Below are positions 25,787-32,021 of a stretch of 64,000 nt of DNA, piece by piece. The position numbers and the translations under genes were made by a program. The stretch comes from Actinotalea lenta (GTDB taxonomy: Bacteria > Actinomycetota > Actinomycetes > Actinomycetales > Cellulomonadaceae), in assembly GCF_030586465.1 (NCBI RefSeq), contig NZ_JAUQYP010000001.1, forward strand, positions 2,755,946-2,819,945, read 5' to 3'. Below the pieces are notes generated by a model. It was given only the letters and a program-made list of their open reading frames with translations. It was not told where the DNA came from and made no database searches. Every line of letters starts with the position of its first letter. The stretch's first letter is position 1.

Positions 25787-26272
25787 GTGCCCCGCCGCCC
25801 CCTCGCGCTGCTGCTGACCTCGGTCGCGCTGACCTCCGGCCTGGCCGCCTGCTCGACCCGCGTGCCGGTGGAACCCGCACCTGACGCGGGAGACCCGGCG
25901 TGCGCCACGCTCGTGCTGTCGCTGCCCGACACCCTGGCGGGCCTGCCGCGGCTGCTGACCACCAGCCAGGCCAGTGCCGCGTGGGGTTCCGCGGACCACG
26001 CGATCGTGCTGCGCTGCGGAGTGACGCCTCCAGGACCCACGACGGACCAGTGCGTCACGGCGGACGACGGCACGTACTCCGTCGACTGGGTGGCCGTCCC
26101 CGGGGCGACCGACGTCGGGGGTTATGCGGACTGGACCTTCACGACGTACGGCCGGTCCCCCGCCGTGGAGGTGTTCGTCCCGGCCGCGGTGACCGACACC
26201 CACTCGACCGCGTTCCTCATGGAGCTGGGCCGGGCGATCTCCACCGTGCCCCCGACCCGGCACTGCGTCTAG
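25787..26272 (+). CDS. DUF3515 lipoprotein
   Basis: 161 aa secreted lipoprotein. The signal peptide ends in the lipobox LAAC (Cys22). The mature part has DPACATLVLSLPDTLAGL and later Cys residues (about 77, 88, 160) that could form disulfides. DUF3515 proteins lie between thiL and ddl across actinobacteria; function unknown. The GTG start is 6 bases after TAGCGT. Confidence 0.88.
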   Translation: MPRRPLALLLTSVALTSGLAACSTRVPVEPAPDAGDPACATLVLSLPDTLAGLPRLLTTSQASAAWGSADHAIVLRCGVTPPGPTTDQCVTADDGTYSVDWVAVPGATDVGGYADWTFTTYGRSPAVEVFVPAAVTDTHSTAFLMELGRAISTVPPTRHCV

Positions 26273-27359: not shown

Positions 27360-28520
27360 CTACCGCCGAGGGCCGTCCAGGCCGACGAGCTTTCCGGCGA
27401 TCCCGCCCGCGGCGCGCAGCGCCGCGCCCGAGCCGAACCCGCTGGGCGCCGCGACCACGGGCGCGTCGCGGGCCTCACGCAGCGCGTCGAGCAGGACCTG
27501 GGACGCCGCCACCGTGGGCGCCCACAGGTACAGCGCCAGCGCGCCGGGCACGGCGTTGACCTCGTTGACCACCAGGTCGCCCGAGGCCTCGTCGTACAGG
27601 AAGTCCACCCGGGCCACGCCCGTGATCCCGGTGACCGCCGCGACCCGCCGCGCCAGACGCTCGGCCAGCTCGGAGACCTGGGCGGGGACCTGCGCGGGCA
27701 GCTCGCGTGGCGCGGCGGTCAGGCCCGCCTGCCCCGGGCCGCCGGCCAGGTACTTCTCGTCGTAGGAGTAGACCGCACCGTCCGGGGAACGCAGCGGCTT
27801 CTCCAGGTCGGAGACCTCGAGCTGGGCAGCGCCCGTGCGGAACGAGATGTTGAGGTCCACCAGGTCCCCGCGGAACGGCTCCACGACCGCGCCGGCGCGC
27901 AGGTGCGCCGAGGTTCGGCCCACGACCCGCGCGGCCGCCACGTCGTCGACGATCTCGATGCCGATCGAGGACCCGCCGAACCGCGGCTTGACGATGTACG
28001 GCCCGTCGAACGGCGGGTCGATGTCGGGCTCCAGCGCGACGCGCGGCAGCGTCGGGATACCCGCGGCGGCCAGCACGCCGCCGAACGCGAGCTTGTCCAT
28101 GCCCAGGGCGGAGGCGTAGACGCTGCCACCGGTCGTCGGGATGCCGAGGAGCGCCATCAGCCCTGCGTAGCCGCCCCCCTCACCGAGGCCGCCGTGCAGG
28201 CAGGACAGCGCGGCGGAGATCTCGAGGCGCTCGCTGCGCAGCCGGCCCTTGACGAACAGCCCACCGTCGGCGCCCACGCGCACGTCGACGGGACGGGCGC
28301 CGGACGGGGCACCCTCGAGATAGTCCTTCGCCTCGGTGCCCGCGGGGACCAGGAACCAGGCACCGGTCGGCGACCAGTACAGCGGTACCACCTGCTGACC
28401 GGCGCCCGTGAGAACTCGCTCGGCCTGCAGGCCGGTGAGGATCGAGATCTCGTGCTCGGGAGACGGTCCACCGAAGACGACGGCCCAGCGGGCGTCGGAC
28501 GTGCTCGGGCTCTCGGGCAT
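27360..28520 (-). CDS. Diverged DdlA-like ATP-grasp ligase
   Basis: 386 aa, DdlA/VanA-type layout: FGGPSPEHEISILTG, LHGGLGEGGG, MDKLAFGG, VKPRFGGSSIGIE, YSYDEKY and GVARVDF. The Mg ligands in NEVN (319-322) are intact. The loop that binds the second D-Ala is rebuilt: PGALALYLW replaces PGFTxxSMY, so Tyr331 stands where Ser is invariant. GEDGSLQG is GEGGGYAG. Position next to DUF3515 on this strand matches the usual ddl locus, but the residues argue for a different second substrate. It is 32 bases after the MurF-like gene and likely co-transcribed with it. Confidence 0.75.
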   Translation of the reverse strand: MPESPSTSDARWAVVFGGPSPEHEISILTGLQAERVLTGAGQQVVPLYWSPTGAWFLVPAGTEAKDYLEGAPSGARPVDVRVGADGGLFVKGRLRSERLEISAALSCLHGGLGEGGGYAGLMALLGIPTTGGSVYASALGMDKLAFGGVLAAAGIPTLPRVALEPDIDPPFDGPYIVKPRFGGSSIGIEIVDDVAAARVVGRTSAHLRAGAVVEPFRGDLVDLNISFRTGAAQLEVSDLEKPLRSPDGAVYSYDEKYLAGGPGQAGLTAAPRELPAQVPAQVSELAERLARRVAAVTGITGVARVDFLYDEASGDLVVNEVNAVPGALALYLWAPTVAASQVLLDALREARDAPVVAAPSGFGSGAALRAAGGIAGKLVGLDGPRR

Positions 28521-28552
28521 CGGGTGGCTACCTCGCGGGTCGGGGGCCCGGC

Positions 28553-30088
28553 TCACGGATAGTGGTCGGGCAGGTCGTTCTCGTACAGTATGACGCCCTC
28601 CGGGCCCGCGACCCGTGTCGCGACATCGATCGCCTGGTCGCGTCGGTCGACCGTGTCGTGGCTCCCACCGGCCTGCTCGACGCCCGCCACCAGTGCCGTC
28701 CGGTTGGTCCGGCCGACCACCACGACGTGCGCCCCGAGCTCGGCCGCCTGGCGTCCGAGCGTCGTGTTCCGCACCGCCTGTACCGAGCCCAGCTCGACCA
28801 TGCCCGGGGTGACCAGCACGAGCCGGCTGCCCTCGCCGACCAGCGCCGCCGCCTCCTCGAGCGCCGCGCGGGCGCCGACGGGGTTGGCGTTGTAGGTGTC
28901 GTCCACCACCACGAGGCCGGCGGCGGTGCGCTGCACCTCCGCCCGGTGCGCGGCGCGGGGCAGCCCGGTCAGGCGCCCGCGCAGTCCCGCCGGGTCGACG
29001 TCCAGCACGACGGCGATGCCCAGCGCGACCGCGAGGTTGACACCGTGCGCCACGCCGTCGCCCAGGTCCAGCGTGACCCGCCCGTCCGGTCCTGGCAGCG
29101 TCGCCGTGCCGGCGGCCAGGTCCACCACGACGTCCGCCTCGAGCCCCGTGACGCTGCACGTCACCACGCGCTTGCCCTCGGCCCGGCAGCGCTCGGCGAG
29201 CGCCGCGAGCCCCGGCTCGTCCACGGGGAGCACCACGGACCGGGCACGCTCGGTGATCTCCGACTTGGCCTGCAGGATCACCTCGCGCGAGCCCATCCGC
29301 TCCAGGTGTGCCTCGCCGATCGTGGTGATCGCCGCGACGTCGGGTGGGAACAGCCCGCACAGCTCGCGGATCTCACCGGGGCCGTAGGTGCCCATCTCCG
29401 CGACGAAGACCTCGGTGCCGTCCACCAGGCCGTCGTTGACCGCGCGGGACAGCCCGAGGCGGTTGTTGAAGCTCGCGGGCGAGGCGACCACGGCCCGGCT
29501 GGTGGCCAGCAGGTGCGCGACGTAGCCCTTGGTCGACGTCTTGCCGTAGGAGCCGGTGATCGCGACAACCGCCGGCCGCACGCGGGCCAGCCGCTGCTGC
29601 GCCCGGGAGACGAACGACGCGGACATCCGCTTCTCCACCATCCCGGCCAGCCACGCGGCGAGGTCGACGGTCAGCGGGACCGTGACGGCGACCAGGGCGG
29701 CGCCTGCCGGACGCACGAGCCACGCGAGCAGCCCGCCGAGGACCACCACGACGAGGAACCAGCCGATCGCCAGCCGGCGCATCCGCCCCGTCCAGGCCAG
29801 CCGGGAGGTCCGCCCGCGCACCGACAGGCGCAGCGGCACGAGCGCACCCAGCACGGCCCCGGCCAGGCCGGCCGCCCAGGCGCCGCCGAGTGGCGCGAGC
29901 GCGACCAGGGCCAGCAGCGCGGCGAGCCCCGCCCCGGCGGCGTCCACGCCTGAACGGGTGAACCAGATCTGGGCGATCCGCGTGGCGCGGCCCGGGAGGT
30001 AGTGCTCGCGCTGGCTCACTCGCAGCCAGCGCAGGCCGCCGAGCGCCGTCAGGGCGGCGACCAGCACCAGTCCCACGACGTCGATCAT
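28553..30088 (-). CDS. Membrane-anchored MurF-like Mur ligase
   Basis: 511 aa. Residues 1-150 contain about five hydrophobic helices, absent from ordinary soluble MurF. The Mur-ligase core follows: P-loop ITGSYGKTSTK (177-187), NNRLGLSRAVN, MGTYGPGEI (232-240), AHLERMGSREVI and DDTYNANP (396-403). These match MurF most closely. The C-terminus ends YENDLPDHYP instead of the MurF KGSR region. Its ATG overlaps the hydrolase stop, and a Ddl-like gene follows at 32 bases. A membrane-side amide-bond-forming role using the Ddl-like product is inferred; the acceptor is unknown. Confidence 0.8.
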   Translation of the reverse strand: MIDVVGLVLVAALTALGGLRWLRVSQREHYLPGRATRIAQIWFTRSGVDAAGAGLAALLALVALAPLGGAWAAGLAGAVLGALVPLRLSVRGRTSRLAWTGRMRRLAIGWFLVVVVLGGLLAWLVRPAGAALVAVTVPLTVDLAAWLAGMVEKRMSASFVSRAQQRLARVRPAVVAITGSYGKTSTKGYVAHLLATSRAVVASPASFNNRLGLSRAVNDGLVDGTEVFVAEMGTYGPGEIRELCGLFPPDVAAITTIGEAHLERMGSREVILQAKSEITERARSVVLPVDEPGLAALAERCRAEGKRVVTCSVTGLEADVVVDLAAGTATLPGPDGRVTLDLGDGVAHGVNLAVALGIAVVLDVDPAGLRGRLTGLPRAAHRAEVQRTAAGLVVVDDTYNANPVGARAALEEAAALVGEGSRLVLVTPGMVELGSVQAVRNTTLGRQAAELGAHVVVVGRTNRTALVAGVEQAGGSHDTVDRRDQAIDVATRVAGPEGVILYENDLPDHYP

Positions 30089-30816
30089 CGGTCACGCTCC
30101 AGGTGCTCGCTCAGGGCCGCTGCGACGCGGTCCTCCAGGTCCCCGGTCAGCAGGTGCCCGCCGCCGGCCACCACCTCGAGCCGTGCGCCGGGGACCAGGT
30201 CGGCCGCCAGCCGCGCTCCGGCGAGCGGCGCCGAGTCGTCGAGCTCCCCCCAGACCATGGTGACCGGCACGGCGATCCGCGCGAGGTCCTCGCGGTAGTC
30301 CTCGTTGACCACGCGCACGAAGACGTCGCGCATCACGCCCTGGGCGGCCCGGTAGTCCTCCGAGCCGGCGTTCCTGCGCGCCCGCTCCAGGACCGCCGTG
30401 GGCAGGAGGTGCGCGGCGTGCAGCCGCTTCGCCACGCGGACCCGCAGCGCGGGGGCCGGCGGAGGCGTCGCACGGACGAGCGGCGCCCCGGTGAGCACCA
30501 GGGACCGGACCAGCCGGGGATGCCGCACCGCCAGCCGGACGGCGACCCGGCCGCCGAACGAGTGCCCGACGACGACGTACGGTCCCGTCCCGCTCAGCGC
30601 GCCCGCGAGGTGGTCGGCGTACTCCTCGCTCCCCCACGCCTCAGGGGGTGGCGGCGTGGTCCCGAACCCGGGCAGGTGGACCGCGAGACCGTCGTGGCCC
30701 TCCAGCACCCGGGCGAAGTCGGCGCCGGTGCGCATCCACCCGTGCAGCGCGAGGACGTCCGAGTCCTGCCGACCGGTCCGGTCGGCCAGGAGGTCCCCCG
30801 CAACGACCGTCAGCAC
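30085..30816 (-). CDS. Alpha/beta hydrolase of the MurF-like/Ddl-like cluster
   Basis: 243 aa. VLALHGW gives the oxyanion region, VGHSFGGRVA the nucleophile Ser, WGELDDSAP the Asp and AGGGHLLTGD the His, so the triad is complete. It overlaps the MurF-like gene by 4 bases (ATGA), so the two are coupled. No signal peptide. I chose GTG 30814-30816 because TAGCCT (30825-30830) lies 8 bases upstream; a TTG at 30825 would start inside that hexamer. It may be an esterase, amidase or peptidase acting on the product of the two ligases; substrate unknown. Confidence 0.8.
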   Translation of the reverse strand: MLTVVAGDLLADRTGRQDSDVLALHGWMRTGADFARVLEGHDGLAVHLPGFGTTPPPPEAWGSEEYADHLAGALSGTGPYVVVGHSFGGRVAVRLAVRHPRLVRSLVLTGAPLVRATPPPAPALRVRVAKRLHAAHLLPTAVLERARRNAGSEDYRAAQGVMRDVFVRVVNEDYREDLARIAVPVTMVWGELDDSAPLAGARLAADLVPGARLEVVAGGGHLLTGDLEDRVAAALSEHLERDR

Positions 30817-30824
30817 GGCGAGCA

Positions 30825-30852
30825 AGGCTAGCAGCGCGGCCGAGCCTAGGCT
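30825..30852. promoter_or_regulatory. Symmetric divergent leaderless promoters, hydrolase / PLP lyase
   Basis: TAGCCT on the minus strand (30825-30830) and TAGGCT on the plus strand (30847-30852) each lie exactly 8 bases from a GTG start. The start codons are 44 bases apart. CCTAGG in between is palindromic. Confidence 0.55.
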
Positions 30853-30860
30853 TGGCCGGC

Positions 30861-32021
30861 GTGAGCCACTCCACAGGTCTGTCCCGCGCCACGATCGCCG
30901 TCACCGCCGGCCGGCCCGAACGACGCCGCGGCGCACCGCTGACCGCACCGCCGGTGCTGTCCTCGACCTACGTCTCCAGCGGACCTCCACGACCCGATGA
31001 GCCGCTGTACGGCCGGAACGCGAACCCCACCTGGGACGAGCTGGAGGCGGCGCTCGCCGCCCTCGAGGCAGCCGCGACCCCAGCCGTGGTGACGTCCTCG
31101 GGGATGGCGGCGATCGACGCCGCGCTCTCGGTGGTCCCGGCGGGCGGCCGGGTCGTGGTGCCGCAGCACGCCTACCAGCTGACCGGGGCGCTGCTGGAGG
31201 ACCTCGGCCGCCGCTGCGGCCTGCACGTCCAGCGCGTCGACGTCGCGGACACCGACGCCGTGCTGGCAGCGGTCCGCGGCGACGGGGACGCTGCGGACCT
31301 GCTGTGGGTGGAGTCGCCGACCAATCCGATGCTCGAGGTCGCCGACCTCCCTGCGCTCGTCGCCGGGGCGCATGCCGTGGGAACAGCCGTCGCGGTCGAC
31401 AACACGTTCGCGACCCCCATGGTGCAGCGGCCGCTCGAGCACGGTGCGGACCTCGTGGTGCACTCGGTGACGAAGTACCTGGCGGGGCACTCCGACGTCG
31501 TGCTGGGTGCGGTCCTGACGGACCAGGCGGACCTGCGCGACCGGGTGGTCGCGCACCGCACGCTGCACGGCGCGATCGCCGGGCCGTGGGAGGCATGGCT
31601 GGCGTTGCGGGGGCTGCGGACGCTCGCGCTGCGCGTGGAGCACTCGCAGGCGTCGGCGGCCGTGCTGGCCGAGCGGCTCGCCGAGCACCCCGCCGTGCTC
31701 GAGGTGCGCCACCCGAGCCTGCCGGGAGACCCGGGTCACGAGCGGGCCACCCGGCTGATGGCGGGGTACGGCTCCGTGATCGGGCTCCGGCCGCGTGGCG
31801 GGATCGCCGCGGCGGACGCGCTGGTCGATGCCGTGCGCCTGTGGGTGCCCGCGACGAGCCTGGGGGGTGTCGAGTCCCTCCTCGAGCGCCGGCGTCGGTT
31901 CGCCACCGAGAGCCCCACCGTCCCCCAGGACCTCGTTCGCCTGAGCGTCGGCATCGAGGACGTCGAGGACCTGTGGGCGGATCTCGAGCAGGCGTTGGAG
32001 ACGCCGCCTGAGGAGGGCTGA
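30861..32021 (+). CDS. PLP-dependent Cys/Met-metabolism lyase (cystathionine gamma-lyase/synthase type)
   Basis: 386 aa. The PLP Lys205 lies in VVHSVTKYLAGHSDVVLGA, and SSGMAAIDA, WVESPTNPML and VDNTFATP are family motifs. Members cleave or form cystathionine, or release sulfide or methanethiol; the exact reaction cannot be read here. It is divergent from the hydrolase-MurF-like-Ddl set and starts at a GTG 8 bases after TAGGCT. Confidence 0.88.
   Translation: MSHSTGLSRATIAVTAGRPERRRGAPLTAPPVLSSTYVSSGPPRPDEPLYGRNANPTWDELEAALAALEAAATPAVVTSSGMAAIDAALSVVPAGGRVVVPQHAYQLTGALLEDLGRRCGLHVQRVDVADTDAVLAAVRGDGDAADLLWVESPTNPMLEVADLPALVAGAHAVGTAVAVDNTFATPMVQRPLEHGADLVVHSVTKYLAGHSDVVLGAVLTDQADLRDRVVAHRTLHGAIAGPWEAWLALRGLRTLALRVEHSQASAAVLAERLAEHPAVLEVRHPSLPGDPGHERATRLMAGYGSVIGLRPRGGIAAADALVDAVRLWVPATSLGGVESLLERRRRFATESPTVPQDLVRLSVGIEDVEDLWADLEQALETPPEEG

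Follow-up and report, generated by a model that had tools for sequence, protein, structure and literature searches.

A conserved three-gene set with a MurF-like ligase carrying a predicted membrane domain as a candidate replacement for MurF and Ddl in Actinomycetota

MurF and Ddl are taught as parts of a near-invariant cytoplasmic pathway and are drug targets, with D-cycloserine acting on Ddl. Van sets, which are additional to the housekeeping genes, make D-alanyl-D-lactate (D-Ala-D-Lac). MurT, a Mur ligase homologue without a uridine diphosphate (UDP)-binding domain, acts on lipid II and partners GatD in amidating D-glutamate, and in the passages that treat the missing domain its authors consider it needless on lipid II and liable to clash with the membrane (PMC6113224). 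Here we describe a set of three genes in a stretch of 64,000 nucleotides from Actinotalea lenta (NCBI RefSeq assembly GCF_030586465.1, contig NZ_JAUQYP010000001.1, positions 2,755,946 to 2,819,945; the window, from here on), which encode an alpha/beta hydrolase (abH), a MurF-like ligase with a membrane domain (MurX) and a Ddl-like ATP-grasp ligase (DdlX); the names MurX and DdlX were coined in this analysis, for P0002 and P0001, respectively. Genome comparison supports the replacement of MurF and Ddl by this set well, while the action of MurX on a lipid carrier is something that we infer, and overall we lean towards a non-canonical Ddl and MurF replacement in which MurX most likely acts on the lipid carrier.

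All three genes lie on the reverse strand. The first is abH (30085..30816; 243 amino acids (aa) from a GTG start; PF00561/PF12697), for which a TTG at 30825 is a possible alternative start, the GTG being favoured by the consensus start of its relatives. It is followed by MurX (28553..30088; ATG start, 511 aa; PF08245 and PF02875) and DdlX (27360..28520; ATG start, 386 aa; TIGR01205 below cut-off). A first-pass annotation of the window, made from the sequence alone, had described a 4-base overlap of hydrolase and Mur ligase and a Ddl-like gene 32 bases further on along the same strand, and the coordinates confirm both the overlap (ATGA) and the gap.

The source genome (3.3 Mb, 3 contigs, 100% completeness) yielded no MurF over the cut-off in a MurF-profile search, in which MurX scored 189 bits, MurE 94 and one further Mur ligase 81. 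The Ddl profile matched only DdlX (162 bits) and a second Ddl-like gene, P0004 (193 bits), both below the cut-off. The set holds the genome's only MurF-like gene and, P0004 apart, its only Ddl. Between murE and mraY the canonical murF is missing, and an assembly gap is an unlikely explanation for its absence, given the 3 contigs, the 100% completeness and the abutting murE and mraY frames.

In a sample of the order, MurF over the cut-off is present in 116 of 119 genomes; the three without (G000, G034, G080) each have a MurX-type match and are also without a Ddl over the cut-off, the fourth genome under the Ddl cut-off (G016) being an assembly of 92% completeness whose Ddl scores 236.5 bits. 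Across 296 genomes of the phylum, all 15 with a strong MurX (15/15, split matches counted) are without both MurF and Ddl over the cut-off, and 20 of the 296 in all are without such a Ddl. MurF at E up to 1e-75 is absent from 42 of the 296, comprising the 15 with strong MurX, 11 of a more distant type (family f25, discussed below) and 16 with neither. The f25-type genomes have MurF at E up to 1e-75 in 0 of 11, and a Ddl at E up to 1e-70 in all but four. At least 5 of the 16 genomes with neither MurF (1e-75) nor a MurX-profile match (1e-60) belong to a single family (f37).

Both systems occur in the class of genome G402, taken as Acidimicrobiia from the names of related loci. Here, canonical MurF is found in 68 of 119 genomes, all 68 with canonical Ddl, and 47 of 119 have only a MurX-type match (13 confirmed by the MurX profile, 34 by score and profile start alone; G282 and G352, whose matches are split, are known from the MurX-profile search). 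Exactly one Ddl (E up to 1e-30), below the cut-off, is found in 46 of these 47; the 47th (G415), whose MurX lies where a contig ends, yielded none. Of the remaining genomes, three are without either system and one has Ddl only, and no genome among the 119 pairs canonical MurF with a DdlX-type Ddl alone, or the converse. One member of the class (G453) adds a second Ddl, at 202 bits, to the canonical pair.

Among 25 MurX genomes examined closely, 15 have just one Ddl homologue (E up to 1e-15), and MurF over the cut-off is found in one only; Nocardioides luteus (L033) stands outside the MurX genomes searched for MurF. The lone exception is Nocardioides sp. YR527, which has MurX and DdlX and, within a van island, a Van-type Ddl and a canonical MurF as well. 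Since many genomes, the source genome included, carry the set instead of MurF and Ddl, it most likely performs the core step, and by genome comparison it very probably replaces the function of both enzymes. The YR527 island (L096 5310-13115) contains vanX, a D-Ala-D-Lac ligase, vanH, murF and a FemX-like gene, as well as two genes resembling a two-component system. The Mycobacterium-labelled sp. MYCO198283 (L093/L099) has MurX, no MurF over the cut-off, and DdlX as its single Ddl.

A MurX protein search gave at least 550 relatives, of which the best 80 loci were analysed. These come from Cellulomonadaceae, Microbacteriaceae, Nocardioidaceae, Propionibacteriaceae, Geodermatophilaceae and one Mycobacterium, and many are from records named Acidimicrobiia or Acidimicrobiaceae; Actinotalea sp. 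M2MS4P-6 is the window's closest relative among the loci compared. With loci set aside where a contig end was too near (3 for the abH count, 6 for the DdlX count), abH lies directly upstream of MurX in 76 of 77 evaluable loci, the 4-base overlap being present in 48 of the 76, and DdlX (at least 200 bits) lies next to MurX in 68 of 74, on the same strand in 67 of the 68. The accompanying statistical tests gave p values of 1.6e-14, 2.5e-21 and 7e-29, with genomes treated as independent though related. A chance neighbourhood is rejected by this adjacency, which also answers the check proposed in the first-pass annotation, a search for co-occurrence of the three families elsewhere: abH, MurX and DdlX form one conserved unit, as the comparison supports. 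A pseudogene reading of the set is likewise rejected, the ratio of nonsynonymous to synonymous substitution rates (dN/dS) being 0.19-0.32 for a pair of Actinotalea genomes. Four loci (L071, L075, L078, L087) form a clade with abH and MurX and no adjoining DdlX.

MurX shares with MurF its central and C-terminal Mur ligase domains, its P-loop and its core residues, and its closest solved structure is MurF 3zl8 (Z 28.0, root-mean-square deviation 5.2, 358 aligned). Its best NCBIfam model is likewise that of MurF (TIGR01143), yet the score of 188.7 bits falls short of the 288.6-bit cut-off, as do the 168-210 bits of unsplit matches among its relatives. MurX departs from MurF in domain 1, the UDP-binding domain, which is unmatched in MurX and in place of which hydrophobic helices are found. 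Whereas canonical MurF matches the profile from position 1 or 2 in nearly all genomes, MurX matches never do: their first matched position is 56-70 for most rows and 23-35 for five (G000, G333, G442, G482, G488; the source genome's is 33).

The helices that replace domain 1 span residues 1-155 (29624..30088, reverse strand) by hydropathy, AlphaFold2 and alignment. Hydropathy gives four merged hydrophobic stretches in residues 1-152, and residues 2-170 are all-helical in the AlphaFold2 model (mean predicted local distance difference test (pLDDT) score 95.1). The N-terminus is compatible with about five membrane helices, in agreement with the roughly five N-terminal helices seen in the first reading. 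Within this part R23, Q26, R27, Y30, W42, T100 and R102 are invariant among aligned relatives. The core positions K183, T184, H261, K275, R382, D396, D397, N400 and others, which we take to be P-loop and catalytic residues of a Mur ligase, are invariant in 58/58 relatives, the C-terminal H509 being the sole counted core residue that is not (57/58). MurX ends in ...LYENDLPDHYP, and alignment of relatives places the motif ENDLPDHYP (28556..28582, reverse strand) at the site of the canonical KxSR-like end, with E503-N504-D505-L506-P507 invariant in 58/58 aligned relatives. Three canonical MurFs end instead in VLVKASR, VLFKSSR or VLVKASH, plus a tail, and the C-terminus is indeed unlike that of MurF, as first remarked.

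As a Mur ligase fold without a UDP-binding domain, MurX also resembles MurT, chains of which align with it at Z about 20. However, its neighbours in the window are abH and DdlX, there is no GatD among the set's genes (no genome-wide GatD search was made), and it is MurF that MurX matches best.

DdlX has a Ddl fold, its AlphaFold2 model (mean pLDDT 89.7) finding its closest solved match in Thermus Ddl, but scores only 161.6 bits against TIGR01205, for which the cut-off is 245.65. Neither the Ddl of this type in the window nor that of any of the 46 MurX genomes with a Ddl in the class of G402 reaches the cut-off, and such Ddls accompany MurX in the genomes examined. Residues E22, H109, K143, K178, R304, D306, E320 and N322 are invariant in 52/52 relatives and E214 is kept in 48/52, with Gln in the other 4, so that all counted core residues are invariant except E214 and the changed pocket positions; we take the Glu, His, Lys, Arg and Asp to be catalytic and the Glu and Asn to be metal ligands. 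One such changed position is that of the conserved Ser of solved Ddl, presumably a residue of the second D-Ala carboxylate site. The codon of DdlX Tyr331 stands here (27528..27530, reverse strand; by alignment), with Tyr in 49 and His in 3 of 52 relatives, and the canonical Ddl of a same-family genome has Ser at this position. The substitution of the invariant Ser, noticed at first in the window, is therefore real and family-wide. The changed GEDG loop noticed with it has fared less well, since GEGG is present in the window but is a local feature, the family consensus being GEDG. Ser184 and Tyr257 of DdlX are invariant in 52/52 relatives and match by motif Ser150 and Tyr216, described in the part of PMC7691350 that concerns them as markers of ligases making only D-alanyl-D-alanine (D-Ala-D-Ala); the residue loss of D-Ala-D-Lac ligases is thus not found in DdlX.

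The set also recalls the Van clusters (vanHAX, some with murF) as a second set of Ddl and MurF type, one of which is present as an extra in Nocardioides sp. YR527 (L096). MurX and DdlX, in contrast, appear to replace the canonical genes. The best score of DdlX with Van-type NCBIfam models is about 83 bits, with cut-offs of 495-775 among the models listed (25 of 34 families), and a Van-type resistance set is rejected because these models are far below cut-off and no VanH or VanX is among the set's genes.

Both loci read of the more distant family f25 (L114 and L115) contain the three genes too; MurX and Ddl are separated there by a gene on the reverse strand, and the MurX ends are ENDLPDHY or ENDLPDQY. 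The Ddls of these loci score 276 and 268 bits, above the Ddl cut-off, yet have the same Tyr motif, and consequently the Tyr change seems to track MurX and not overall Ddl divergence. In a tree of MurX the 22 rows from Actinomycetes form one group (100/100), separate from the remaining 57 (groups being named from record titles and the root serving for drawing only), which is compatible with a single entry into Actinomycetes followed by spread or loss.

In the mechanism that we favour, DdlX, in view of its intact catalytic residues, would join two D-amino acids, most likely as D-Ala-D-Ala, and MurX, anchored in the membrane, would couple the dipeptide to a muramyl-tripeptide. The acceptor would most likely be undecaprenyl-linked (lipid I or II, after MraY) and not UDP-linked. 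In a third and weakest step, abH would act as a serine hydrolase that perhaps edits or recycles the dipeptide or a mis-made stem. The DdlX and MurX pair fits the early suggestion of a dipeptide made and then attached at the membrane, and the membrane domain of the ligase is itself supported. That the dipeptide is D-Ala-D-Ala seems probable, because Ser184 and Tyr257 match the markers of D-Ala-D-Ala-only ligases. A lipid-linked acceptor, proposed by analogy with MurT, we rate at even chances; it is the simplest reading because MurX has lost the domain that MurT also lacks and has a conserved membrane part. An editing role for abH is doubtful. Taken to its full extent, the proposal would have MraY take UDP-N-acetylmuramic acid (MurNAc)-tripeptide, MurX and DdlX finish the stem on the lipid with abH as an editing enzyme, and no UDP-MurNAc-pentapeptide be built, with a dipeptide that may differ from D-Ala-D-Ala, in a large part of Actinomycetota; in this form we advance it tentatively.

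Several points weigh against this proposal. DdlX does not adjoin MurX in 6 of 74 loci (L071, L072, L075, L078, L087, L090), and in one of them (L090) MurX has neither abH nor DdlX as a neighbour. The genomes compared are related, and are not independent samples. P0004 could supply Ddl activity in the source genome. The helices could merely dock MurX near MraY, and the changes from Ser to Tyr in DdlX and from KxSR to ENDLP in MurX, both presumably on the second-substrate side of their enzymes, could mean another dipeptide.

The part played by abH is the least settled of the three, and there are roughly equal odds that it is a partner with a role other than editing, such as taking off a lipid or protecting group or serving MurX as a structural subunit. 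Coupled synthesis is suggested by the 4-base overlap with MurX in 48 of 76 loci, and a family-profile search found no solved structure related to abH at E up to 1e-20. Nevertheless, its triad residues Ser89, Asp196 and His224 (numbered from the TTG) are invariant in 36/36 relatives, which argues for catalysis.

An alternative that keeps the replacement of MurF and Ddl would have MurX use UDP-MurNAc-tripeptide as MurF does, its membrane domain only positioning it beside MraY and MurG. MurF itself is the closest structural match of MurX, the core residues are kept, and the MraY of the source genome is typical (TIGR00445, 306.2 bits against 192.05). We nevertheless consider this unlikely, as MurX never matches the start of the MurF profile, the site of the UDP-binding domain, and the invariant charged and aromatic residues of its membrane part exceed what would be expected of an anchor.

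We are equally doubtful of a changed product, in which DdlX would make D-Ala-X or another dipeptide and MurX would be tuned to it, so that the stem would carry something other than D-Ala as residue 5. This residue is lost on cross-linking and is not visible in ordinary wall composition. The idea gains from the conserved changes on both second-substrate sides (the Ser site is occupied by Tyr or His in 52/52 relatives, and ENDLP is kept in 58/58) and from the recurrence of the Tyr motif in the two f25 Ddls above the cut-off (276 and 268 bits), but DdlX retains the equivalents of Ser150 and Tyr216. Furthermore, the portion of one report that gives wall composition describes two Actinotalea species, whose set status was not checked, as having walls of type A4beta with an alanine content of about 2.4-2.9 per diamino acid (PMC8878594), a composition in keeping with a normal mature stem but silent on residue 5.

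An accessory role in wall tailoring, self-protection or small-molecule production, put forward in the first-pass annotation, is highly improbable: unusual pocket residues and an extra hydrolase speak for it, but the source genome is without MurF and Ddl over the cut-offs, 24 of the 25 MurX genomes have no further MurF over the cut-off and 15 have a sole Ddl homologue (E up to 1e-15), which counts against a special purpose, the set sits in the slot of ddl (see below), and mutual exclusion with the canonical pair, which the set seems to replace elsewhere too, rejects an accessory or biosynthetic cluster.

In searches of the open-licence PubMed Central literature for a missing or alternative MurF or for this gene set, no paper among the matches listed treats it, going by titles and abstracts. 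Whole lineages, including cultured isolates of Marisediminicola, Aciditerrimonas and Modestobacter, are without MurF and Ddl over the cut-off and possess a substitute that includes a membrane domain, and the set may explain genomes whose wall pathway seems broken in automatic annotation. Should completion of the stem indeed take place on the lipid carrier, the order of steps given in textbooks would not be universal, and screens based on UDP-MurNAc-pentapeptide or on standard MurF and Ddl would miss such organisms. Moreover, the presence of both systems within one family offers a natural experiment on the purpose of the UDP-binding domain of MurF.

The position of the set is that of a canonical ddl. 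In a canonical genome of the same family (L113), the gene order, with names that we partly presume, is cystathionine-lyase-like gene, ddl, DUF3515-type gene, thiL and recG. The window and Actinotalea sp. M2MS4P-6 have the set plus P0004 in the slot of this ddl. By comparison with the L113 order, the slot in the window is bordered on the left by a gene that we take to be cystathionine-lyase-like (30846..32021, forward strand) and on the right by one that, going by actinobacterial gene order, is presumably of DUF3515 type (25787..26272, forward strand). Some Microbacteriaceae loci (L018, L020 and L028 among them) have the set alone between gpsA and the DUF3515-type gene.

P0004 (26378..27349, forward strand; matched by the Ddl profile) is convergent with the set and is not a regular member of it, being present (at least 150 bits) beside the set in only 7 of 80 loci. 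In its E-x-N metal motif, Ala replaces the Asn in the window's copy and in 6 of 7 orthologues, the seventh (L067) having Ser. Its dN/dS of 0.16 (Actinotalea pair) indicates purifying selection. This gene, on the strand opposite to the set, was unmentioned in the first-pass annotation.

Remnants of murF persist where the complete gene is gone. Wall-gene (dcw) clusters of MurX genomes contain full-length MurF in 0 of 14 cases, and a C-terminal fragment of MurF remains between murE and mraY in 6 of the 14. The fragments form open reading frames of 337 aa in Marisediminicola, 253 aa in Yonghaparkia and 182 aa in Mycobacterium sp. MYCO198283; that of Gulosibacter was detected by tblastn only, with no Pfam match. 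In both Actinotalea the fragment continues the MurE reading frame as a C-terminal fusion (source genome murE; L094 4734-6755), a tail that resembles the last domain of MurF. Over 128 codons this tail has a dN/dS of 0.24, against 0.15 for the MurE core (a single Actinotalea pair) and 0.19-0.32 for the set, and a dead-fossil reading is consequently not favoured in Actinotalea on this one pair, where the MurF tail fused to MurE is probably still in use.

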